From: a virus
DNA: 27,729 bases
IMG/VR virus record: IMGVR_UViG_3300031974_002747
Coordinates: 1-27,729 of that record
Strand: one strand, 5' to 3'
This document shows positions 1,943 to 27,195 of this stretch, piece after piece (position 1 is the first letter of the stretch; every line of letters begins with the position of its first letter). A program made the translations under genes and the position numbers. The notes below the pieces were generated by a model. The model made no database searches and was not told the origin of the DNA. It was given only the letters and a program-made list of their open reading frames with translations.

Positions 1943-2153
1943 TCCTCTTTAGCAGCTTGATCAGACGCTTTACGAAGTTCATTCTGAATGCCGAAAGCGT
2001 TGTAATAGTGTTGTCAATAACTGCTAAGTTCTTCTCACTCACTTCTTTTGAGTGAATGATCTCTTCGATCTGCTTGATAAGGAACTCTAGATTCTGTATG
2101 TCTGGGTCATTAAGCTGGCCTGTTCCTTTTTGTAAATCACTGATCTTCTTCAT
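1926..2153 (-). CDS. 75-aa protein of unknown function downstream of the helicase
   Basis: I do not recognise this protein. The frame could be read further upstream (to 2270), but that would run through the 3' end of the helicase gene. The ATG at 2153 has a good ribosome site (CAAGGA, 4 nt upstream) and overlaps the helicase end by 17 nt, the usual phage coupling. The product begins MKKISDLQKG and is dominated by charged and hydrophobic helix (NLEFLIKQIEEIIHSKEV, then a basic C-terminal FVKRLIKLLKRN). It looks like a small helical, possibly nucleic-acid- or partner-binding protein. In T4 the recombination mediator gene uvsY lies shortly downstream of uvsW. This protein is about half the length of UvsY and I see no clear sequence match, so I do not assign it. 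Confidence 0.65.
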   Translation of the reverse strand: MKKISDLQKGTGQLNDPDIQNLEFLIKQIEEIIHSKEVSEKNLAVIDNTITTLSAFRMNFVKRLIKLLKRNHMLD

Positions 2154-3519
2154 AGTCCTTGATTTCGTGTCCTTCTTTTCTGTAGTATGAGAACCTTGAT
2201 TTTGAGTGGTCCTTAAGATACCTTTCTTCATCTGCGAAGTCGTAGATATATACTTGCTCTTTAGATTCATGCTTTCTCAGAGCGCGTCCTAGAGCCTGTA
2301 GTGTAGCAATTTCAGACTTCATACCTCTTGCGTTAATTAGGTGTGTCACTTCTTGAATGTTCACACCCGTTTGTAGGATCTTTGTGCCGATTAGAACTGT
2401 GCCTTCTGGATTCTTCCTGAACCAATCAATCGCTTGATACCTCTCGCCCAGACTGTTAGCACCTTCGATATACCTACAAGTGTTGCCTAGCTTATCCATC
2501 AACCACTCTCCGTGTGCTAGAGATTTGGTTAGAATCAAGATACGGGGCTTTTTATGCTCGACCATGATTTGAGCCACAATATCTAGTATCTTCTGGTTAC
2601 GCTCCTCGTTCTCCACGATGTAGGTTTCATAGGCGGTTTGGTAGTCCATCTCGATGTCTGCCCCAGCAGCCTTGTATTTACGCCTTACACGGTGAATGAG
2701 GGGCTTTGTGAGTGTACCATCGTCTACGAGATCAGCGGTCTGCACGACCTCCCACACGCGCCCTAGAGCGCCTTCTAGGTTGTGTCGGCCAATATCATCA
2801 GAAGGGGGCGTAGCGGTGAATCCGATGCGGTAGTCGGCGTTAGGGAAGGACTGGAGGGCTCCTAGAGTGAGCTTGCCATTACAGAACTCATGACACTCAT
2901 CAACCATCAAGACCTCTGCCTGACCTACATGGCTGTCGATGATATGCTCAATACTTTGCACGGTGCAGAGCATGATATCGCCCTCGATGAACCCATCACC
3001 AAAGCAAAGACCCACACTGTCAAAATGGCAGACTTCTGTAAAGAACTCGTATGTCTGGGTAAGGAGTTGCTTGGCGTTGAATAGAATAACAATCTTCCTG
3101 CCCTGCTTGCGTAAAGCTTGGACAGCAGCAGCCATGATAAGTGTCTTACCCGAACCAGTAGGAGATTTTACCACGCCCCGCTTCTCCTGTCTTATCTTTT
3201 CTATAAACTCCTCTTGATAGTCGTAGAGGTCGAACCCCTCTATTTGGTGGTCAGCAAGGTCAAGTGATCCCGTCTTGTCGATGATCTCAGGTGTACACTC
3301 TACCTTTTCTAGATCAGCTAGGATACGAGGTAGGAGTCCTGTGCGGAAGGTGCCACCATTGGTAATGAACTGCTTTGTACCATTCCAGCGATGTGAGCGA
3401 TAGTTTCTTGAATATTCCGCTCCGGGCACGCGAAAGCTATATAGAGTTACCAAGGCTGACAGCAGCTTTGGATTATCCGTAAATATTTTTGATTTTTGTG
3501 TGCCTACCTCTATCTGCAT
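2137..3519 (-). CDS. uvsW: UvsW-type superfamily 2 DNA/RNA helicase
   Basis: 460 aa. By family knowledge, UvsW unwinds R-loops and branched DNA, moves Holliday junctions, and shifts T4 from origin- to recombination-primed replication. Helicase motifs are complete: Walker A SPTGSGKT (119-126), DECH box (207-210), FTATP (234-238), motif V GTKILQTGVN (378-387) and motif VI QALGRALRKH (408-417), close to the QTIGRVLRKH I recall in T4 UvsW. The N-terminal ~100 residues (MQIEV at the start, FRVPGAEYSRNYRSHRWNG at 29-47) match the layout of the small T4 UvsW N-terminal domain. This supports the ATG at 3519 over an in-frame ATG at 3642, which would run through the opposing chaperone gene. No Shine-Dalgarno site precedes 3519. 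Instead TATAATA ends 5 nt upstream. The next gene overlaps its end. Confidence 0.92.
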   Translation of the reverse strand: MQIEVGTQKSKIFTDNPKLLSALVTLYSFRVPGAEYSRNYRSHRWNGTKQFITNGGTFRTGLLPRILADLEKVECTPEIIDKTGSLDLADHQIEGFDLYDYQEEFIEKIRQEKRGVVKSPTGSGKTLIMAAAVQALRKQGRKIVILFNAKQLLTQTYEFFTEVCHFDSVGLCFGDGFIEGDIMLCTVQSIEHIIDSHVGQAEVLMVDECHEFCNGKLTLGALQSFPNADYRIGFTATPPSDDIGRHNLEGALGRVWEVVQTADLVDDGTLTKPLIHRVRRKYKAAGADIEMDYQTAYETYIVENEERNQKILDIVAQIMVEHKKPRILILTKSLAHGEWLMDKLGNTCRYIEGANSLGERYQAIDWFRKNPEGTVLIGTKILQTGVNIQEVTHLINARGMKSEIATLQALGRALRKHESKEQVYIYDFADEERYLKDHSKSRFSYYRKEGHEIKDYEEDQ

Positions 3520-3560
3520 CAATCTATTATAGATGAGAATCCTTTTTTGAGGAATTTTAT
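3520..3560. promoter_or_regulatory. divergent promoter region between helicase and chaperone genes
   Basis: These 41 bp must hold the nearby start signals of two opposite genes. CTATTATAG at 3524-3532 reads CTATAATAG on the minus strand, a plausible -10 or T4-late-type element for the helicase, ending 4 nt before its ATG. Toward the plus gene there is a T-run and GAGGAA (3550-3555), a good ribosome site 5 nt before the ATG at 3561. Promoter assignment is by inspection only. Confidence 0.4.
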
Positions 3561-4316
3561 ATGACAAGAAAATCCGAAACAAAATCCACAGAACAACTGT
3601 CTGAGGATGATATTCTAGAGCTACTACTAAAGGACGCACCAAAATCTGAAGAAATCGAACTCGATCTCCCTTCCAAGTGCGTTGGCTATAAGAGTCTTAA
3701 CGGCAAAGCTCCCATGCTTCGCCCCATGACCTTTGATGACGAGAAAGCTCTCATGAACCCAAACAACCAAGGCGATGCTATGAATAAGCTCATCGCTCGT
3801 TGTTTGTCTAACATTTCCATCTCTGAGCTATACCAAGCCGATAAACTATACATCATGCTCAAGCTTAGAGAGATTTCATACGGCGATGATTATCCTGTAG
3901 AGATTACTTGTCCAGCCTGTTCAAAGGAATCTAAAGTGGCTTTCAAACTATCCTCTCTCAATGTGAACTATGTTGAAGATGATTTCTCTGATCCTATGGA
4001 AATCGAGCTACCAGTCCTTAAGCATAAGGTCGGTATAAGATTACCTAGAGTTAAGGATGAGCGGTATTTTGAAACCACTGATATCGCGCTCTCTAACCTT
4101 TGGAGATTCGTAGAGTATATCAACGAGTACGATCAGAAAACGCTTATTTCTAAGTTCTTAGAGAAGCTCCCCCTCCGTGACGCGCACGCGGTCCTGTCTG
4201 CCCTTTCTGGAAAGCAATTTGGCATTGATACTCAGGTACACTTCCTGTGCCAATACTGCAACACCAAGACAAGGATGGAGATGCCTATTACTTCTGATTT
4301 TTTTACGACGAACTAA
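3561..4316 (+). CDS. 26: gp26-like baseplate hub assembly chaperone (zero-frame product)
   Basis: 251 aa, resembling the T4 gp26 baseplate protein family: the LRPMTFDDEKALM segment (53-65) and LREISYGDD (102-110) match what I recall of it. Two Cys pairs, CPAC (117-120) and CQYC (230-233), form a likely zinc ribbon. In T4, gp26 is needed for hub assembly, and by position it is the counterpart of the tape-measure chaperones of other phages. The ATG at 3561 follows GAGGAA. The zero frame ends TCT GAT TTT TTT ACG ACG AAC TAA. The seven-T run 12 nt before the stop is a classic slippery heptamer, and a -1 shift there gives a 312-aa product (next entries). This parallels the lambda G/GT chaperones. 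Unlike the usual arrangement, the tape measure gene lies about 3.7 kb further on, beyond primase and nuclease genes. Confidence 0.82.
   Translation: MTRKSETKSTEQLSEDDILELLLKDAPKSEEIELDLPSKCVGYKSLNGKAPMLRPMTFDDEKALMNPNNQGDAMNKLIARCLSNISISELYQADKLYIMLKLREISYGDDYPVEITCPACSKESKVAFKLSSLNVNYVEDDFSDPMEIELPVLKHKVGIRLPRVKDERYFETTDIALSNLWRFVEYINEYDQKTLISKFLEKLPLRDAHAVLSALSGKQFGIDTQVHFLCQYCNTKTRMEMPITSDFFTTN
4298..4304 (+). promoter_or_regulatory. -1 programmed frameshift slippery heptamer T TTT TTT
   Basis: In the zero frame the bases read GAT TTT TTT, so 4298-4304 is exactly X XXY YYZ with all T. The -1 frame has a TGA at 4295-4297, directly before the run, and is then open for 64 codons to a TAG at 4496-4498. 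The zero-frame stop follows 9 nt after the run. A purine-rich AAGGATGGAG at 4271-4280, about 17 nt upstream, could act as an internal Shine-Dalgarno stimulator. Perfect 8-bp stem arms lie downstream at 4342-4349 and 4368-4375. Confidence 0.75.
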
Positions 4317-4498
4317 AACAGGTTCTAGATGAACAAGACTTGCACCTTCAAGCCTATATATTGGTGAGAAGGTGCCGATTCTCCTATTCCGATGTTCGTG
4401 GGATGACAAAGAGAGATCGTAATGCTTTCTTGAAACTGTACGAAGAAGAGGTACAGAGGGAATCTGATGCAATTAAACAACACAACTCTCGTAGATAG
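4304..4498 (+). CDS. gp51-like C-terminal extension made by -1 frameshift from the gp26-like gene
   Basis: Read in the -1 frame from the slippery run, these 64 codons begin YDELKQVLDEQDLHLQAYIL, continue with FSYSDVRGMTKRDRNAFLKL and end EEEVQRESDAIKQHNSRR. The composition is that of a real protein: amphipathic, with a helix-turn-helix look. It fits the pattern I recall for short gp51-type hub assembly proteins of T4-like phages (Phe-Ser-aromatic, then Arg, then Phe/Trp, then an acidic helix ending near Glu-Ala-Ile). In T4, gene 51 directly follows gene 26. The segment has no ribosome site and no start before the ATG at 4403, so translation as a 312-aa fusion (248 + 64) is the best reading. 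The alternative is a separate 31-aa peptide from 4403. It overlaps the next gene by 32 nt. Confidence 0.72.
   Translation, partial: YDELKQVLDEQDLHLQAYILVRRCRFSYSDVRGMTKRDRNAFLKLYEEEVQRESDAIKQHNSRR
4342..4375 (+). repeat. 8-bp perfect inverted repeat downstream of the frameshift site
   Basis: GCACCTTC (4342-4349) and GAAGGTGC (4368-4375) are exact reverse complements with an 18-nt spacer. In the mRNA they could form a hairpin starting 37 nt after the slippery run. That is further than the usual 5-9 nt spacer of a stimulatory structure, so a role in frameshifting or in control of the next gene is only a possibility. Confidence 0.4.
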
Positions 4499-7559: not shown

Positions 7560-7994
7560 ATGGAATTTTCAAAAGAAGCTCTGGATTTTATAAGTAATAT
7601 CGGTGATGACCAGCGTAAAATACTTACCCCAGTAACTAATAACGCTAGTAACTTCTCTCCGGGAGATATACTGATATTTACTTATAAGATGCCGGGTGCT
7701 GTGGGCAAGATCAGTGGAGAAGAGAGAGTTTTCATGGTGCTTAAGGGCCGCAGAGGTCCCGGAGTATTCAAGAGCACCAGAGGTAATACTTTGGTAATGG
7801 GCGTCAAATTGGACACAAATAGAGCCTCGATAGAAGTAATCGTAGAAAACCTATATAGTAAGAGGAGGAAGGCTTCGTATTACGGTAAAATAATGAAGTC
7901 TCTCGAATCTCTGATCGGGAAAGACTCGTTCAGAACCTACAACATTCAAGGAATGGGGAATAATTTACACAAGGTAAACATCCGTGGTAACTAG
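7560..7994 (+). CDS. 144-aa protein upstream of the tape measure gene, unknown function
   Basis: The ATG at 7560 follows GAGAGGTCATC. The product begins with a short helix (MEFSKEALDFISNI), then a beta-rich core: FSPGDILIFTYKMPGAVG (33-50), ERVFMVLKGRRGPG, and NTLVMGVKLD. This has the look of a small SH3-like barrel. The layout (Gly-Asp-hydrophobic strand, then an aromatic/valine strand, then a strand ending in a conserved-looking hydrophobic segment) reminds me of small T4-like proteins encoded near hub genes, but I cannot name a family. The C-terminal part is basic. It is first in the late operon and overlaps the tape measure gene by 11 nt, so an accessory role in tail tip assembly is a reasonable guess. 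Confidence 0.65.
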   Translation: MEFSKEALDFISNIGDDQRKILTPVTNNASNFSPGDILIFTYKMPGAVGKISGEERVFMVLKGRRGPGVFKSTRGNTLVMGVKLDTNRASIEVIVENLYSKRRKASYYGKIMKSLESLIGKDSFRTYNIQGMGNNLHKVNIRGN

Positions 7995-10296
7995 GCAAGA
8001 GGAGCTACTAGAACGCATTGAAAGTGCTTTAAGGGAGAATAGAGAGCCCTTAGAGAACATGGAGCGTAGTCTTAAGCAGTTTGCTGGTGTAGGTAAATTA
8101 CTAAATTCAATAGAGAAAGAGGTAACTAAAACATTCGGAGAGGCTAACGATCTTCAGCGTAAAGCTTTAGGTATAGGAACTTCTCTGAACAGGTTTACTT
8201 CAGATTTCTCCCAGAACATCAACACCCTTAATTCTGGCATAACAGGATACAGCCAAGCTCTAAAAACATCATTTGATCTTTATGAAGCTGGCGTAAGAAC
8301 GAACAACGAAGGATTAGCTACTTTAGCACAGTTCACTAAAGCCACAGGCGGAAATAGTAAGGCACTGGCCGGACAATTAGCTAAGAACCTTGCAGGAGCC
8401 CAAGTAAGCGATAAGGAACTTAACAACCTCAGTATGAACACTATATCTCTTTCTCAAAGGTTTGGTGTTAGTACAGAGCAGCTTGTGGGTGCCATCAATG
8501 CGATGGGGGCCCAACTAGATAGCCTTAAGGCATTGAATCTAGGTGCTGAGGCTATTGACGCTTCTCAGAAGCTTTCCGCTGCACTAGGCCCAGAAATGGC
8601 AAGTTTAGGTCCTGAACTTCTTGGATCGTTCTCAAAAGGATCTAGCATGATTCAGACTGAGATCCTGAATCTCGGAAATGAGCGTAGAGCGTTCTTAGCT
8701 GGTGGAGAGCAGGCAGCAGCAGCGGGTATTGATTTAGTAGTAGAGGCTGGAGCACAATCTCAGAAGATTATTGAACAATTCACTGCTGGGGCCACAGACT
8801 CAGCTTTTGCTCTTGAATTAGCTGGCTCAGTTTACGGACAAGAGATTGTTAAGGCCGCTAAAGCTAGACAACAGCTAGAAAGAAAAGCCACTGAGGCTGG
8901 TTTTAAAAATATTAATGAATATGTAAAGTCTGTAAAAGAGCAACAGGCGATCAACACTAACTTTACTAAAACATTAAGCCAACTTAGGGAGAAGATATTT
9001 AGCCCCATCCAAGAAGCCGTTACATTCCTAGCAGGAATCTTAATAAGGATTCTAGAGCTACCTGTGATAGGCACTCTTATAACTCAACTAGGAAAGATTG
9101 GCGTAATCATAGGAACGCTTGTAACAGGCGCTCTAGGACTAGGGTTGGCAATAAAGGGTCTGTATTCAGGAACACTTCGACTAATAAGGTCCATGTCTGA
9201 TCTTATTAGTGGACAAAACAGGAGAGACAAAACTGAGAACGCTCTTAAGGTAGCGATTGATCAGCTTAAAAATGAAATTAGAGCAAGCGCCAGAAGGGAG
9301 GCTGCAAACAAGTTAGCGGCTCAACGAGGTGCTGCCCCAACTGGTGGGTTTGGTGCTTGGTCAAGAGAGCAGGATATCAAGAAAGCTGCGGCAGAGACCA
9401 TGCAAAGAAACAAAGCGAATCTATCTAGAGCTAAGGTGGCGGGGAGTATCGCAGTATTAAGCACAGTCCTAGCCGGATTTACAGATCAGCTTCCAAAATC
9501 AATGCAGCCTGTTGCCAATGTAGTACTTAAGGCAGTTACGGCACTAACCACCTTACAAAGCGTAATGTCTACCTTGAGCTTGGTCATAGGAAAAGACATC
9601 TCATTCAGGTCAGCGGGCAAGGCATTAACTAAAGCTCCCGGAGCAGCGAAGGCTGCTGTTGGATGGCTATCTAAACTCAAGCCGATGCTAATAAATGGTT
9701 TCAAACTAATAGGACCTATGTTATTAGGTTTAGGTAGTTCATTGTTAACTGGTCTTGGCGCTGCGTTCTCAGCCGCGATAGCTGTACTTACCTCTCCGAT
9801 TACGGCAATAGTAGCTGCCGTAGTGGCAGTCGGTGTTATAATTTATAAGTTCAGAGATCAGATTTGGAACGCTGTAAAGTGGGTGGGTAATAAGCTTAAA
9901 GATATGGGGATGTTTATTTGGAATGGAATAAAATCCCTATTCAGCAATCTCAACCCAATGAACTGGTTTGGTGGAGATGACGAAGAAACAACTTCAGAGG
10001 GTCCAAGAATGGGCACTGGCAAAGCGAAAAATTATGGTCGTGATATCCAAGTCAAGTATTGGGCTGGCAGGGATCTTCATAACCAGAGGGTCGCAGCGGA
10101 GGACCAGATATTAGATGATTTATTAGCCTCTATAAAGAGGCAAGAAGAAATAGCACAAAAACAATCTGTTGAGACTCGGCAACAGACTGCGCTTGCAGAA
10201 AATGCAGAGGCGGCAAGAGAAGCCCAACTTGCAGCAGCCAGAGAGGATAAAACTAGACCTTCACAGTTAGCGGGTGTGCAACCCACAAGTAGATAA
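7984..10296 (+). CDS. tail tape measure protein (gp29-like role)
   Basis: 770 aa. It sets tail tube length and lies in the tube lumen, being ejected on infection. Evidence: long Ala/Gln/Lys/Glu-rich helical N-terminal part (MVTRQEELLERIESALRENR onward), a hydrophobic segment around 347-395 (FLAGILIRILELPVIGTLIT onward), a second at about 568-620 (GPMLLGLGSSLLTGLGAAFS and following), then an amphipathic Trp-rich stretch (FRDQIWNAVKWVGNKLKDMG) and an Ala/Gln/Glu-rich end. This alternation of coiled coil and membrane-like helices is typical of tape measures. Translation starts at GTG 7984 with AAGGTAA just upstream, overlapping the previous gene. T4 gp29 is about 590 aa, so a longer tail than T4's is possible. 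The gene is followed directly (TAATG) by the tube initiator gene. Confidence 0.88.
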   Translation: MVTRQEELLERIESALRENREPLENMERSLKQFAGVGKLLNSIEKEVTKTFGEANDLQRKALGIGTSLNRFTSDFSQNINTLNSGITGYSQALKTSFDLYEAGVRTNNEGLATLAQFTKATGGNSKALAGQLAKNLAGAQVSDKELNNLSMNTISLSQRFGVSTEQLVGAINAMGAQLDSLKALNLGAEAIDASQKLSAALGPEMASLGPELLGSFSKGSSMIQTEILNLGNERRAFLAGGEQAAAAGIDLVVEAGAQSQKIIEQFTAGATDSAFALELAGSVYGQEIVKAAKARQQLERKATEAGFKNINEYVKSVKEQQAINTNFTKTLSQLREKIFSPIQEAVTFLAGILIRILELPVIGTLITQLGKIGVIIGTLVTGALGLGLAIKGLYSGTLRLIRSMSDLISGQNRRDKTENALKVAIDQLKNEIRASARREAANKLAAQRGAAPTGGFGAWSREQDIKKAAAETMQRNKANLSRAKVAGSIAVLSTVLAGFTDQLPKSMQPVANVVLKAVTALTTLQSVMSTLSLVIGKDISFRSAGKALTKAPGAAKAAVGWLSKLKPMLINGFKLIGPMLLGLGSSLLTGLGAAFSAAIAVLTSPITAIVAAVVAVGVIIYKFRDQIWNAVKWVGNKLKDMGMFIWNGIKSLFSNLNPMNWFGGDDEETTSEGPRMGTGKAKNYGRDIQVKYWAGRDLHNQRVAAEDQILDDLLASIKRQEEIAQKQSVETRQQTALAENAEAAREAQLAAAREDKTRPSQLAGVQPTSR

Positions 10297-23300: not shown

Positions 23301-24767
23301 TCTATAGATTCCTTCTCTATCAAAGACTTGGAACACTTTGAGTTTGGTAAGAAGCTTCACTCTCTTTACAAAGACTACACGGAGATTGCTGGTCCATATA
23401 AGAACCACCCAACCAACTCATCATATGATTTAGTGGGTGGCCCAAACATTTTCTCTCACACATTTGGCCCTTATATCTACAATCACAATTTAGATGTAGA
23501 CGGATCAGCTATCGACACAAGTGCTTATTTACAGGCCAGTTCTGCTGAGGTAGAGGTTGATATCTCTTTCTACGACGGAAGCGGGGTATTAAGTGAAGAA
23601 GGCATCGGATTAGGAACTGTAGCTGCATCTACCACTGCTGATGTATATGTAGGGAAGCCTGAGTTCAGAAACGAGCACATTATTAGTGGTATCGAGTTAG
23701 TCGATACATCTTCAACTAGCGATGACGCTGCGGCACACCCAATCTTCTCAGTCTTTAGATTAAGTAGAAATGAGCAGAGTAAGTATTCGTTTGCTAACTA
23801 CCTCATAAACAACACAATCCTAAAGTATCACAGATCAACTTCAAGAAATAAGTTACCAAGAATTAGAGTTAAGATTGATAACTCAGACAGCGGTAATGAT
23901 GCTAGAAACTTCCTTTCACCCGGTCATGAGTATGAGGTTAAAGTTACAGGTCACAACCTAGCTCTAACTGGTCGAGAGATTGGTGGACAGTCTTTAGGCA
24001 TGTGGGTTCATACTGAAAACGAGAATGGGCAAGTATTCTCTTATGTACCTAAGCCCTATACCTGCATTCCCGATGAGGTATTTGTTACAGGAACCGACTA
24101 TTGGGAAAGATCAGACACAAGCGCGTTTGCTGGAAGGAACGGGATCTCGAAGGTCGCGGGCTACACTCAGGTCAGAAGGTTCGAGGAAGGTAATCTAAAT
24201 AACCTAAACACTTCTGCAAACACTCCAGACGGGATTAGACAGAGCACCGATTATCGCTGCTATGAGCCTCTGACTGAAACAACCATCATCGAGGGCACTA
24301 ACCCAGACGCTATAATAAATATATCAGAAAAGACTAGACAAACACTTACTTACAAGTTCAGAACTGTCGAGTCTCCTGTAACTGAGCTTACAGCACAGTA
24401 TCAAAGAGATTACGGACAGGTCCACAGAAACGATCAGAAGTATGTGTTAGAATTCTTCGCTCCCACTGGGGACGAAGAGAAGTTTATTGTAATTGAAAGT
24501 ATAGAAATCACTGACCTTACTAGGAAGAGGAGAGCGGTAGTCTCCTCTCAATATGGTGAGGTTGAAATCAATGTTGAGGATATGAGAGCAATCTTCAGAT
24601 ACTTCAACAGCATAAGAAACAACTTGGCAAGTAGGGACGCTATTAACACCTCTGCAACATTTGAGGCAAGTGGTGGTAGTAGGTTGAACTACAGAAATAA
24701 TGCAAACATGGGAACTGCAACACAGTCAGGAGGACAGTACACGGTGGTAACGGTTTATGAAGGGTAG
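20319..24767 (+). CDS. gp7-like giant wedge protein with P2 gpI-type domain
   Basis: 1482 aa, directly after the gp6-like gene as gp7/gpI is in T4-like and P2-like baseplates. Residues ~350-415 hold the tail protein I signature: CPDQYLELLADLIGWRLIGV, then DPDKWRVQLRNAVEVYKKKG and TKSSIQTLLDLIF. Upstream is a helical N-terminal part; downstream are long beta-rich segments that could form arms reaching the fibre attachment points. T4 gp7 is about 1032 aa. The extra ~450 residues are Asn/Ser/Thr-rich C-terminal regions with no recognisable domain. It ends in a YEG, and the stop overlaps the next start by 11 nt. I am confident of the wedge role but not of exact orthology. Confidence 0.82.
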   Translation: MTRRVVKSSKINDLGETSSKLVSVVSTGRSFENYDSGQKYFKRNYLDALKKIIPQVYFDDEIALSGQSISYTDQIINSHILAAANINTILPVSSLASVPDLSALNTQEGIARFFYKQNVPNIITPDDFERNILGPLGSFYRDFDSSSTFLAHVKTTLAKFPVPTTGAHTDLTDNTRTSGVFASDSSGTHKFLIENLGWIYFLNREGPNLTAFDPSSAVAELITTNLWAGRPIEFVDCINIFQEYLWRLKAEFGLSDNIIPIDYVSGANTDTGQYTSGTQLLDRLKTLNEVVYSPHYLDSADHKVKDAFIDYLAGGGLIEDEQAEGPLVKFLQAMSFSMADRITEDNELNILYDIGKCPDQYLELLADLIGWRLIGVDPDKWRVQLRNAVEVYKKKGTKSSIQTLLDLIFSQGVFNVVDGEKVFELWESYLPDLLFYSLATKSEALKDSKTYTPELAKQFGVTRYSNESLEQNIKLLVDKIIFDLMLEFPDSFFLGNKPYPTPRLTVLPTNREVFGQDGRRIEIKPEDYEVWFGPYHLQPDGSGSYKFRTGSRETEASKDLRLWYHPDYVYRYRGGINYIPPYEKRQFYSQAQITPAMLERIEYYLKCYGVPKAFAEQVTSFITTDTNYNTDIASVINNFVIFTKERKYAPNYDEIVKAATGNREIDQVSLLTLWNGKSSHFLISLAASSFDFSSRQLNSDGSYGVRKLRSVVNEVAPAHAIPDILLTVSDTTDSASGVQDNPCYDVNSRFTSLYEGSSHVAGYAVCAVAMNDNRFKRTEVDNIDDSLFDSGGNTYLSLPRNSLRRRNFRNLLPETRMVSRNGTGSPGKLETSSTFWSTTSAVNILGFIPSSLDFAHVPTKQNTIGNGIGTLLDYKNVPEVWDICENLNSSNTFYGVDTSNTFPFRQKQELTSSDCVTYGRRNELDEIMASMHRLNEKKYYLQASSIVSGYYNENGSRNKDWPSTNSSLTPVDLSAWMERSADPILSIGNHLINNSIDSFSIKDLEHFEFGKKLHSLYKDYTEIAGPYKNHPTNSSYDLVGGPNIFSHTFGPYIYNHNLDVDGSAIDTSAYLQASSAEVEVDISFYDGSGVLSEEGIGLGTVAASTTADVYVGKPEFRNEHIISGIELVDTSSTSDDAAAHPIFSVFRLSRNEQSKYSFANYLINNTILKYHRSTSRNKLPRIRVKIDNSDSGNDARNFLSPGHEYEVKVTGHNLALTGREIGGQSLGMWVHTENENGQVFSYVPKPYTCIPDEVFVTGTDYWERSDTSAFAGRNGISKVAGYTQVRRFEEGNLNNLNTSANTPDGIRQSTDYRCYEPLTETTIIEGTNPDAIINISEKTRQTLTYKFRTVESPVTELTAQYQRDYGQVHRNDQKYVLEFFAPTGDEEKFIVIESIEITDLTRKRRAVVSSQYGEVEINVEDMRAIFRYFNSIRNNLASRDAINTSATFEASGGSRLNYRNNANMGTATQSGGQYTVVTVYEG

Positions 24768-25872
24768 CGTAACAGTAATACAGCATCATGAGGATGGCTC
24801 CGAAGAGGTAATTCTTCAGGAGTCTAATCTCATAGTTGATGGTGGTGGGGAGAGTATAGCCGAGATGATGAGTGTGCCCTCCTCCACATTAGGCTATGCA
24901 CCTCGCGTTATGGACGCATCGAACTGGAGCTTTGCTGCTATAACCTTTTCTCCAGCAAAAGACTCGTTCGGCCAACCGACTTACGCTGACGCTAGTTGCG
25001 CGGACGGATCTAGAGAGCTTATCTCGGCTAATGCTTCTTATGTAACTGCCGAAGCAATAGCTGATCCAAGTTCTTGGATAAATATCGGATATGCTCAAAA
25101 CACTCTTCGGGTTCTAAATCCCACTAATTCAACACTTACCGCAACCAGTGGATACGATATTCCTAAAAAGCTCCCTTCCTACCCCGATCCTATGGATACT
25201 GATTTGGAGCCAAAAGCTCAGTATCAATATGCTACAGTAAGTGGTGATGGACAAACCTTTTTTGGACACCATGAAAATAGGGTTTATTGGGATACTAATC
25301 CATCATCGCTAACCATCGGAGCGTTTGCTCCTAAAACAACAGGTAAGATAGAGAATATTTATTTTGTTAGTTCGCTTGACGCAGACTTTTCGGGAACGCC
25401 TGAAGCTAATGTTGAGTTTTCTGCGGGCGGATCTAAAGTTATTAACACATCAAACTTTAACGGTAGAGGGAGTGTCGATAAACACGGATTTGTAAGCATC
25501 CAACATGAGGATGATTCTACATACGGAGAAGGGTTTGCTGGAGCAGCTTTTTACAGAGGAACCGAAGCTACGAGTAGCTTACAAATAACTAATGGGTATG
25601 TAGAAATTTACTCTCTGATCCATGCTAGTGATATACGATGGATGGCTGTGTATGGAGGTATCCACCATATAGGTTTATGGGTATATGATAATAAGGAGTC
25701 TCTTAAAAATCAAACACCGCCCTATGATCTAACGCCTGATTCAAATGGAGAGACTGGACTAAGATATAGATTGTTTGCTAAGAAAACTTTTACTGAAAAT
25801 CTATGTGCTAGAGATAGATTTGACACTATGGGCACTCTTACATTTCGTTGGAGGATAGACTTTAGATCATGA
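24757..25872 (+). CDS. virion protein, paralogue A of a tandem family
   Basis: 371 aa. The first ~40 residues (KGSVTVIQHHEDGSEEVILQ, ESNLIVDGGGESIAEMM) match the starts of the next two proteins in pattern. The end (LFAKKTFTENL, then GTLTFRWRIDF) also matches their ends, which carry AYKSF/AYRPF and a final Arg/Lys-Trp strand. The middle contains extra beta-rich sequence, including SLTIGAFAPKTTGKIENIYF and VEFSAGGSKVINTSNFNGRG, probably an inserted jelly-roll-like domain. No signal peptide. The location after the gp7-like wedge protein and before a beta-helix protein suggests a fibre connector or baseplate-periphery part. Start overlaps the previous stop; end overlaps the next start (ATGATG). 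Confidence 0.72.
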   Translation: MKGSVTVIQHHEDGSEEVILQESNLIVDGGGESIAEMMSVPSSTLGYAPRVMDASNWSFAAITFSPAKDSFGQPTYADASCADGSRELISANASYVTAEAIADPSSWINIGYAQNTLRVLNPTNSTLTATSGYDIPKKLPSYPDPMDTDLEPKAQYQYATVSGDGQTFFGHHENRVYWDTNPSSLTIGAFAPKTTGKIENIYFVSSLDADFSGTPEANVEFSAGGSKVINTSNFNGRGSVDKHGFVSIQHEDDSTYGEGFAGAAFYRGTEATSSLQITNGYVEIYSLIHASDIRWMAVYGGIHHIGLWVYDNKESLKNQTPPYDLTPDSNGETGLRYRLFAKKTFTENLCARDRFDTMGTLTFRWRIDFRS

Positions 25873-26561
25873 TGCAAGGCCATGTAACAGTTTGTAAGGT
25901 TTACAAGGACGGTACACAGGAGACTGTTGTTGATGAGAGCAACATGATCACTGCTGGTCTTTACTCAGCCTTTTTAGATATCCTTCACCAAGCAGGGTCG
26001 AAGTATGCTGAGGATTACCGTCCACGCTACTACCAGTTTGGAACAGGGACGAACACACTTCCTGCTAACGATACCTCCTCGATCTTCTTCAGCCTGTCTA
26101 GCCCCCTCTCATGGTCTCAGTATGGCTCAGACAGCGACATGGAGCTATACAAGAGGTATAGAGCATTCCCTGTATATAACGGCAGCGAGCTTCAATTTGA
26201 GGACCCTACATTCTCTGCTATCAGCTATTCCGGGGTTGACGAGTACTTCGCAAAGATCGGAGGAGAATACTCAACCAGAATTTACTACGATTCTTTCGAG
26301 TCTATTCTTACGCTAGATACAAATAGTGGAAACGGCCTTACTATCTCTGAGGCTGGTCTTTTCGCTAAAAACCCAAGAGGGTATGCTCAAGATTCTCCAA
26401 CCCTCATGGCTTACAAAAGTTTCACTGGAATACCCAAGACTTCAGACTTCTCTCTGATAATCAGGTGGAGTATTGGCTATGTGGGCATAAGTGATACGAT
26501 TGATACTAGATATAATGGGCAGGACTCGACCCACACAAGAAGAGTACCTAATTTGGATTAA
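25869..26561 (+). CDS. virion protein, paralogue B of a tandem family
   Basis: 230 aa. It starts QGHVTVCKVYKDGTQETVVD then ESNMITAG, nearly the same plan as paralogue C. The conserved core includes YYQFGTGTN, an LTISEAGLFAKNPRG block, PTLMAYKSFTGIPKTSDFSL and IIRWSIGY. The shared LTIxEAGLF/KNP and Phe-Ser-Leu-Val/Ile-x-Arg/Lys-Trp strands point to a common beta-sandwich fold. It has a 26-residue polar tail after the final strand that the other two lack. Translation is coupled to paralogue A by ATGA overlap. The role is not known; a connector between wedge and fibres is the natural guess. T4 gp8/gp9 occupy a comparable place, but I see no convincing sequence match. Confidence 0.75.
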   Translation: MMQGHVTVCKVYKDGTQETVVDESNMITAGLYSAFLDILHQAGSKYAEDYRPRYYQFGTGTNTLPANDTSSIFFSLSSPLSWSQYGSDSDMELYKRYRAFPVYNGSELQFEDPTFSAISYSGVDEYFAKIGGEYSTRIYYDSFESILTLDTNSGNGLTISEAGLFAKNPRGYAQDSPTLMAYKSFTGIPKTSDFSLIIRWSIGYVGISDTIDTRYNGQDSTHTRRVPNLD

Positions 26562-26574
26562 TCTATAATAAGAC
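26562..26574 (+). promoter_or_regulatory. TATAATA element in a 13-bp gap before paralogue C
   Basis: One of only two gaps in the operon. It reads TCTATAATAAGAC and runs straight into the ATG at 26575, with no Shine-Dalgarno site. TATAATA at 26564-26570 could be a -10/late-promoter element giving a near-leaderless transcript. The same heptamer lies 5 nt before the helicase start. It also occurs inside genes by chance, for example at 11288, so confidence is low. Confidence 0.3.
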
Positions 26575-27195
26575 ATGAAGCAGAAGGACCAAATCGACAT
26601 CACAGGACATTTACAGATTGTCAAGGTGTATACTGACGGTAAGGAGGAAGTAGCCTTTGACGATCACAATGTCATCACTTCTGGGATGGGGGCAGGGCTC
26701 GGCCTCTTATATGCGGGCTCTGGAGCGGCTGACATTACAAACTTCCAAGTTAGGTATTTCCAGCTTGGAGTCGAAGGGGATACGGTAATTAGTACTTATG
26801 GTCCTGACCAAGTAACCCTTGTTTCTGCTTTAGGACAGGTTAATGGAGCTTCTGATTACCAGAGCGATGCTAGGTCCACCATTCCCGTATTTGCACATGA
26901 ACTATCAGACTCGAACGGGGACCCCGCAGCAGACAGCCAAGCAGCAACAACTTGGCAGTTTGGATTCATTTCAGACAACGCAATCAAAAGAGTTGATCTA
27001 AATTCTGTTACCTATATATTGTATGTAGACCAATATAGTTGTAATGATCTTACCTTGAATGAGGTAGGATTGTTCATGAAAAACCCACAAGGGCTTGATC
27101 CTAACCGATCTACCCTTGTTGCCTATAGACCGTTTACTGACATAACAAAGACTGACGATTTCTCGCTGGTTTTCAAGTGGACTCTAAACTTCTAA
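26575..27195 (+). CDS. virion protein, paralogue C of a tandem family
   Basis: 206 aa. After a short MKQKDQIDI lead it has TGHLQIVKVYTDGKEEVAFD and DHNVITSG, then VRYFQLGVEG, DLTLNEVGLFMKNPQG, STLVAYRPFTDITKTDDFSL and VFKWTLNF. These follow paralogue B block by block and paralogue A at both ends. It is the most compact member and probably shows the minimal fold. No Shine-Dalgarno site precedes the ATG; TATAATA sits 4 nt upstream instead. The stop TAA is followed one base later by the ATG of the next gene. Probable peripheral baseplate or fibre-attachment protein. Confidence 0.75.
   Translation: MKQKDQIDITGHLQIVKVYTDGKEEVAFDDHNVITSGMGAGLGLLYAGSGAADITNFQVRYFQLGVEGDTVISTYGPDQVTLVSALGQVNGASDYQSDARSTIPVFAHELSDSNGDPAADSQAATTWQFGFISDNAIKRVDLNSVTYILYVDQYSCNDLTLNEVGLFMKNPQGLDPNRSTLVAYRPFTDITKTDDFSLVFKWTLNF

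Follow-up and report, generated by a model that had tools for sequence, protein, structure and literature searches.

In phage lambda, the tail assembly chaperones gpG and gpGT, which are not part of the virion, have their N-terminal part in common, and the long form is produced by a −1 frameshift near the end of the first gene (PMC5009743). The proteins gp26 and gp51 have been listed as hub assembly chaperones, with gp51 described as essential and of unknown function (PMC3004832). Tail assembly chaperones of T4-type phages were named by Vladimirov, Gautam and Davidson in 2022 (Virology 566:9-15), a paper to which the description of PRFect refers for the short and long forms being separate genes in some T4-like phages (PMC10885494), and that of Pseudomonas phage Adele for slippery poly-T signals in the TAC-N genes of T4-like phages (PMC12846349). 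For Adele and the Andersonviridae, a −1 frameshift in a myovirus tail assembly chaperone gene was deduced from conservation (PMC12846349).

Here we describe a gp26-type gene with a putative −1 extension in an uncultivated phage of T4 type, IMG/VR virus record IMGVR_UViG_3300031974_002747, of which the 27,729 nt from position 1 to 27,729 were analysed as one stretch (hereafter the window). From sequence comparison we consider it highly probable that positions 3561–4316 encode a short T4-type tail assembly chaperone and that −1 slippage at 4298–4304 adds a 64-residue gp51 domain to it.

Reading frames at the end of the gp26-type gene

The open reading frame at 3561–4316 ends with ...GAT TTT TTT ACG ACG AAC TAA, where seven T occupy positions 4298–4304. 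The −1 frame is closed by a TGA at 4295–4297, is open from 4298 and ends with the TAG at 4496–4498. The peptide read after a shift starts with YDELKQVLDE, and the fusion amounts to 248 + 64 = 312 aa. A preliminary description made from the letters of the window had placed the T run in exact zero-frame register with the zero-frame stop 9 nt after it, and had the −1 frame shut by the TGA just before the run and then open for 64 codons to give a fusion of 312 aa; all of these readings are borne out by the sequence. The coordinates of the features are collected in Table 1.

Table 1. Features of the gp26-type locus and of its presumed client gene in the window
Feature	Coordinates	Strand	Remarks
gp26-type gene	3561..4316	+	Zero-frame product of 251 aa; putative short chaperone form (TAC-N); PF12322, phrog_150, AlphaFold
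Slippery heptamer T_TTT_TTT	4298..4304	+	Zero-frame register; T_TTT_TTY in 93/93 clade and 57/57 cyanophage-type junctions
Zero-frame stop TAA	4314..4316	+	9 nt past the heptamer; spacing kept in nearly all clade junctions
−1 extension, putative gp51 C-terminal domain (TAC-C)	4304..4498	+	64 codons plus stop; phrog_634, three-helix model, Foldseek
Virtual frameshift fusion	3561..4498	+	312 aa; putative long chaperone form (TAC-NC); phrog_150 positions 11-281/282
Putative cis-acting RNA stimulator	4305..4364	+	Stretch equivalent to the clade-wide synonymous-constraint peak
CAAGCCTATATA	4349..4360	+	Window version of the clade's conserved GAAGCCTATATA; GCC 89/90, ATA 93/93 in clade
Window-specific hairpin	4342..4375	+	About −19 kcal/mol; begins 37 nt past the heptamer; role unproven
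Tape measure protein, presumed client	7984..10296	+	phrog_4200 E 2.7e-10, other tape measure families

In the mechanism that we propose, some ribosomes would slip one base back on T_TTT_TTT, during which both tRNA-Phe would pair anew in the −1 frame, and the slipped ribosomes would read on to 4498, appending a gp51 domain of three helices. The shift would be ribosomal and would occur in a minority of passages, probably boosted by the RNA directly downstream. The short and long forms would act like lambda gpG and gpGT, both coating the tape measure protein and recruiting the tail tube protein.

Four ORFs, one of them on the other strand, lie between the gp26-type gene and the tape measure gene of the window; in Bacillus phage SP-15 and Listeria phage LIS04 the gp26-type gene is near-adjacent to the tape measure gene. 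On the opposite strand, a helicase ORF (2137–3642, −; phrog_16) overlaps the gp26-type gene when its listed TTG start is used, and translation more likely begins at an internal ATG near 3519. Elsewhere in the window, collagen-like GPQ repeats were found at 2–1873 in the first part of a tail fibre protein that is cut off by the contig end, and three tandem ORFs with a similar N-terminal motif were found at 24757–27195. The last two of these ORFs are clear paralogs, and no PHROG match was obtained for the first. GCCTATATA was also considered as a promoter-type element and rejected, since it occurs in the window no more often than in shuffles.

Conservation of the junction among relatives

Relatives were collected by IMG/VR protein searches, which gave 19 loci and then about 160 further loci, and removal of duplicates left 94 distinct junctions, namely 93 of the window's clade and that of cyanophage Syn1. 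The −1 domain alone was also used as a query, in a search where in-frame fusions or separate genes would have turned up too. In each of the 94 junctions, the frame of the homologous domain is −1 with respect to that of gp26, and an in-register T_TTT_TTY is present, nearly always 9 nt ahead of the stop. A search from the S-PM2 gp26 yielded 57 distinct junctions of cyanophage type, all with T_TTT_TTC 3 nt ahead of the gp26 stop and a −1 frame open for ~60 codons. Comparison of homologous gp26-type genes, which the preliminary description had proposed as a check, thus recovers both the slippery run and the −1 frame in all clade junctions (93 of 93) and in all those of cyanophage type (57 of 57). 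Given that the slip signal is present in all of these ~150 related gene ends, we conclude that it is real and that a chance origin is ruled out; the junctions share ancestry, so that their counts overstate the number of independent events.

T_TTT_TTN with a matching layout was also found in RHph_Y68, OLIVR5, MIJ3, RaK2, LR756511, XacN1 and Atu_ph07. The C-terminal parts of SP-15, LIS04, Streptococcus phage GXN1, LR7565xx, XacN1, Atu_ph07 and MIJ3 gave no gp51 family match, so the frameshifts of these phages, the most distant ones, are proposed from layout only. SP-15, LIS04 and GXN1 have an open +1 frame after the gp26-type gene and a common NCC-CGA-TTY just ahead of its stop, and these three phages possibly use a +1 frameshift.

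Since errors are frequent in homopolymer runs and the product is similar to T4 gp51, which is one continuous protein, a sequencing or assembly indel in one truly continuous fusion gene has to be weighed. The layout is, however, common to the ~150 distinct junctions, which come from many assemblies and cultured phages, and an in-frame gp26-gp51 fusion was found in none of them. The single uninterrupted gene in relatives that would have told against frameshifting was accordingly not encountered among these junctions, and we reject assembly error as scarcely credible.

Probable selection on the slip site and the −1 frame

At the 93 clade junctions, the codon ahead of Phe-Phe invariably ends in T, compared with 70% T (T versus C) for the Asp, Asn and Ser codons elsewhere in the same genes, and the first Phe of the slip is invariably TTT, the codon used for 76% of Phe elsewhere in these genes. 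The last base of the heptamer varies (40 T and 53 C). An invariant T at the two synonymous positions relevant to slippage, together with a free last base, fits the X_XXY_YYZ rule. Past the slip, the codon-position entropy of the −1 frame is 0.94/0.57/1.31 bits in the clade junctions, which is a coding-type pattern.

The run consists of seven T in the window, and UUUUUUU is under-represented in all frames of E. coli genes, for which transcriptional slippage has been named as a possible reason (PMC4066793). RNA polymerase could thus gain or lose bases on the T run, with the −1 frame being reached via altered mRNA. On the other hand, the run consists of just six T followed by C at 53 of the 93 clade junctions and at all 57 of the cyanophage type, and the downstream constraint, like the exact X_XXY_YYZ register, fits tandem slippage by the ribosome. 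We therefore reject transcriptional slippage on the six-T sites and consider it very improbable.

An equally slight probability is given to a separate small gene 51, expressed by reinitiation or from a start of its own as the cyanophage annotation has it. Cyanophage records do give gp51 its own CDS just past the gp26 stop, and an in-frame ATG is found 5 nt past this stop in 30 of the 57 cyanophage-type junctions, but 17 of the 57 lack an ATG up to 40 nt from the stop, and in the clade only 3 of 93 junctions have an ATG among the 25 codons that open the −1 frame. In addition, the synonymous positions of the slip are frozen, which reinitiation would not need. A separate start was rejected for the window's clade, and the case is less clear for the cyanophages.

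The reading favoured by these comparisons is the programmed −1 frameshift originally put forward for the window, joining gp26 to a gp51-like domain. The case for it is made by the conservation of the slip site and the −1 frame, the frozen synonymous sites, the lack of in-frame fusions among the junctions and the rarity of an ATG that could start a separate gene.

Candidate RNA stimulators

Synonymous constraint along the fused ORF reaches 0.3–0.5 at the slip and across the ~20 codons (~60 nt) that follow it, against a background of about 0.05. It drops to background after this peak and rises a second time at the 3′ end, where the next gene starts (4467). The strongest constrained sites are in GAA-GCC-TAY-ATA, where GCC is used in 89 of 90 cases (16% of Ala codons elsewhere) and ATA in 93 of 93 (23% of Ile codons elsewhere).

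For the clade, a stem of 10 pairs was proposed that begins 8 nt past the heptamer and in which 70% of the cells pair, compared with 43–53% when the alignment was slid by 1–3 columns. The loop of this hairpin can pair with CTATAT 3′ of the stem, with five of the six pairs formed at 75–92%, above the slid controls. Covariation in the stem is weak and no consensus RNA structure was found by RNAalifold in 79 junctions, so the pseudoknot is a proposal, and both stem and pseudoknot rest on the pair counts and the synonymous constraint. The RNA just 3′ of the slip may stimulate frameshifting, with most of the clade being able to form the stem and possibly also a downstream pseudoknot. The near-invariance of GAAGCCTATATA is explained by this proposed pseudoknot only in part. 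The window itself keeps 3 of the 10 stem pairs and cannot form the shared stem; it has a small hairpin near the slip as well as the strong hairpin listed in Table 1, and the z score for 4298–4400 is −4.15.

Upstream of the slip, the window has the SD-like AAGGATGGAG at 4271–4280, whose distance of 17 nt from the T run is at the far edge of the 6–17 nt range used in PMC4066793. An SD-like sequence was found upstream of the slip in 28 of the 93 clade junctions versus about 11% of other positions, a comparison in which the encoded peptide is uncontrolled. This count does not point to a stimulator shared by the clade. The element noticed in the preliminary description is present in the window, but a stimulator role for it is not supported, the element not being conserved.

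Identity of the two domains

The zero-frame protein matched PF12322 with an E-value of 1.8e-21, in agreement with the gp26-like identity first assigned to it, and phrog_150 with an E-value of 1.2e-25 over positions 11–233 of 282. The AlphaFold model of this product (pLDDT 91) matches models of T4-type gp26, and sequence and fold searches of the PDB with the gp26 domain returned nothing meaningful, with no recognisable solved relative.

For the −1 domain, a profile search against gp51 families bears out the proposed gp51-like tail through the clade members, 9 of 14 of which match phrog_634 (baseplate hub assembly catalyst, gp51) with a best E of 2e-5, but not through the window's 64 codons alone, for which the family profile search gave no significant match. 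The match of the virtual fusion to phrog_150 extends from one end to the other and scores 99 bits, compared with 91.5 bits for the zero frame alone. The −1 ORF of S-PM2 matched phrog_634 at 1.9e-27, and hhalign between the clade −1 profile and the S-PM2 peptide gave an E-value of 1.3e-5, indicating a distant kinship. AlphaFold modelled the −1 domain as three helices (pLDDT 87), and in a Foldseek search against viral models the gp51 of P-HM1 was ranked second with a probability of 1.00 and an annotated tail assembly chaperone fourth with a probability of 0.99 and an rmsd of 0.7 over 53 columns, the E-values being weak as is usual for a domain of 64 residues. Together these matches support the assignment of the −1 domain as the gp51 C-terminal domain.

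Comparison with known tail assembly chaperones

In T4, PF12322 is matched by gp26 (E 9e-64) and by gp51 (E 4e-52), and gp51 matches phrog_634 too. T4 gp51 covers positions 13–280 of the 282 in phrog_150, as the window fusion does, and T4 gp26 covers 14–235, as the window zero frame does. The parallel between these coverages suggests that the two paralogues of T4 correspond to the one frameshifted gene of the window. Whereas the window has one gene and a probable frameshift, gp26 and gp51 are encoded in T4 by two paralogous and divergently transcribed genes, in agreement with the preliminary description, which has them as separate genes there, and two T4 genes thus appear to encode what the window phage would make from one.

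In the cyanophages S-PM2 and Syn1, as in the window, an in-register heptamer (T_TTT_TTC) precedes the gp26 stop and gp51 is in the −1 frame, with the stop 3 nt past the heptamer instead of 9 nt and a gp51 part only distantly related to that of the window's clade. Genes 26 and 51 are annotated there as two genes; cyanophage records such as L030 and L031 list gene 51 as a short CDS of its own that begins past the gp26 stop. The conservation of the slip suggests that these annotations miss a frameshift.

The arrangement is already known in kind, as cyanophages and further T4-type phages have it too and the T4 pair was described as tail assembly chaperones in 2022, so far as that paper is represented in the works citing it; the synonymous-constraint element, like the survey in its breadth, may go beyond the published work. 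In a broader scenario, for which we judge the chances to be evenly balanced, gene 51 of T4-type phages outside the T4 lineage would usually be the −1 extension of gene 26 via T_TTT_TTY, with a downstream pseudoknot in the window's clade that was rewired in some sub-clades, and the route would have switched from −1 slippage to an apparent +1 shift in SP-15, LIS04 and GXN1 and to gene duplication in T4. Should gp26 and gp51 be a short and a long form of a single chaperone that many T4-type phages make by frameshifting, their role could be tested in other systems, the cyanophage gene 51 records would need re-annotation, and one family would show frameshifting and gene duplication as interchangeable routes to two protein forms.

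The Adele locus resembles that of the window in its −1 shift and conserved poly-T but belongs to another phage lineage and has a GTTTTT motif, the two being compared by layout. As in lambda gpG/gpGT, the window would have a short and a long form with a −1 shift near the end of the first gene, and the analogy to lambda drawn in the preliminary description is strengthened by the Foldseek matches to a gp51 model from a cyanophage and to a protein annotated as a tail assembly chaperone. Unlike lambda, the window has a PF12322 N-terminal domain, a poly-T slip and a tape measure gene that is not adjacent; the likeness is one of layout and fold. From family membership and fold similarity, we infer that the two products serve as tail assembly chaperones in a short and a long form, with the tape measure protein as their client.
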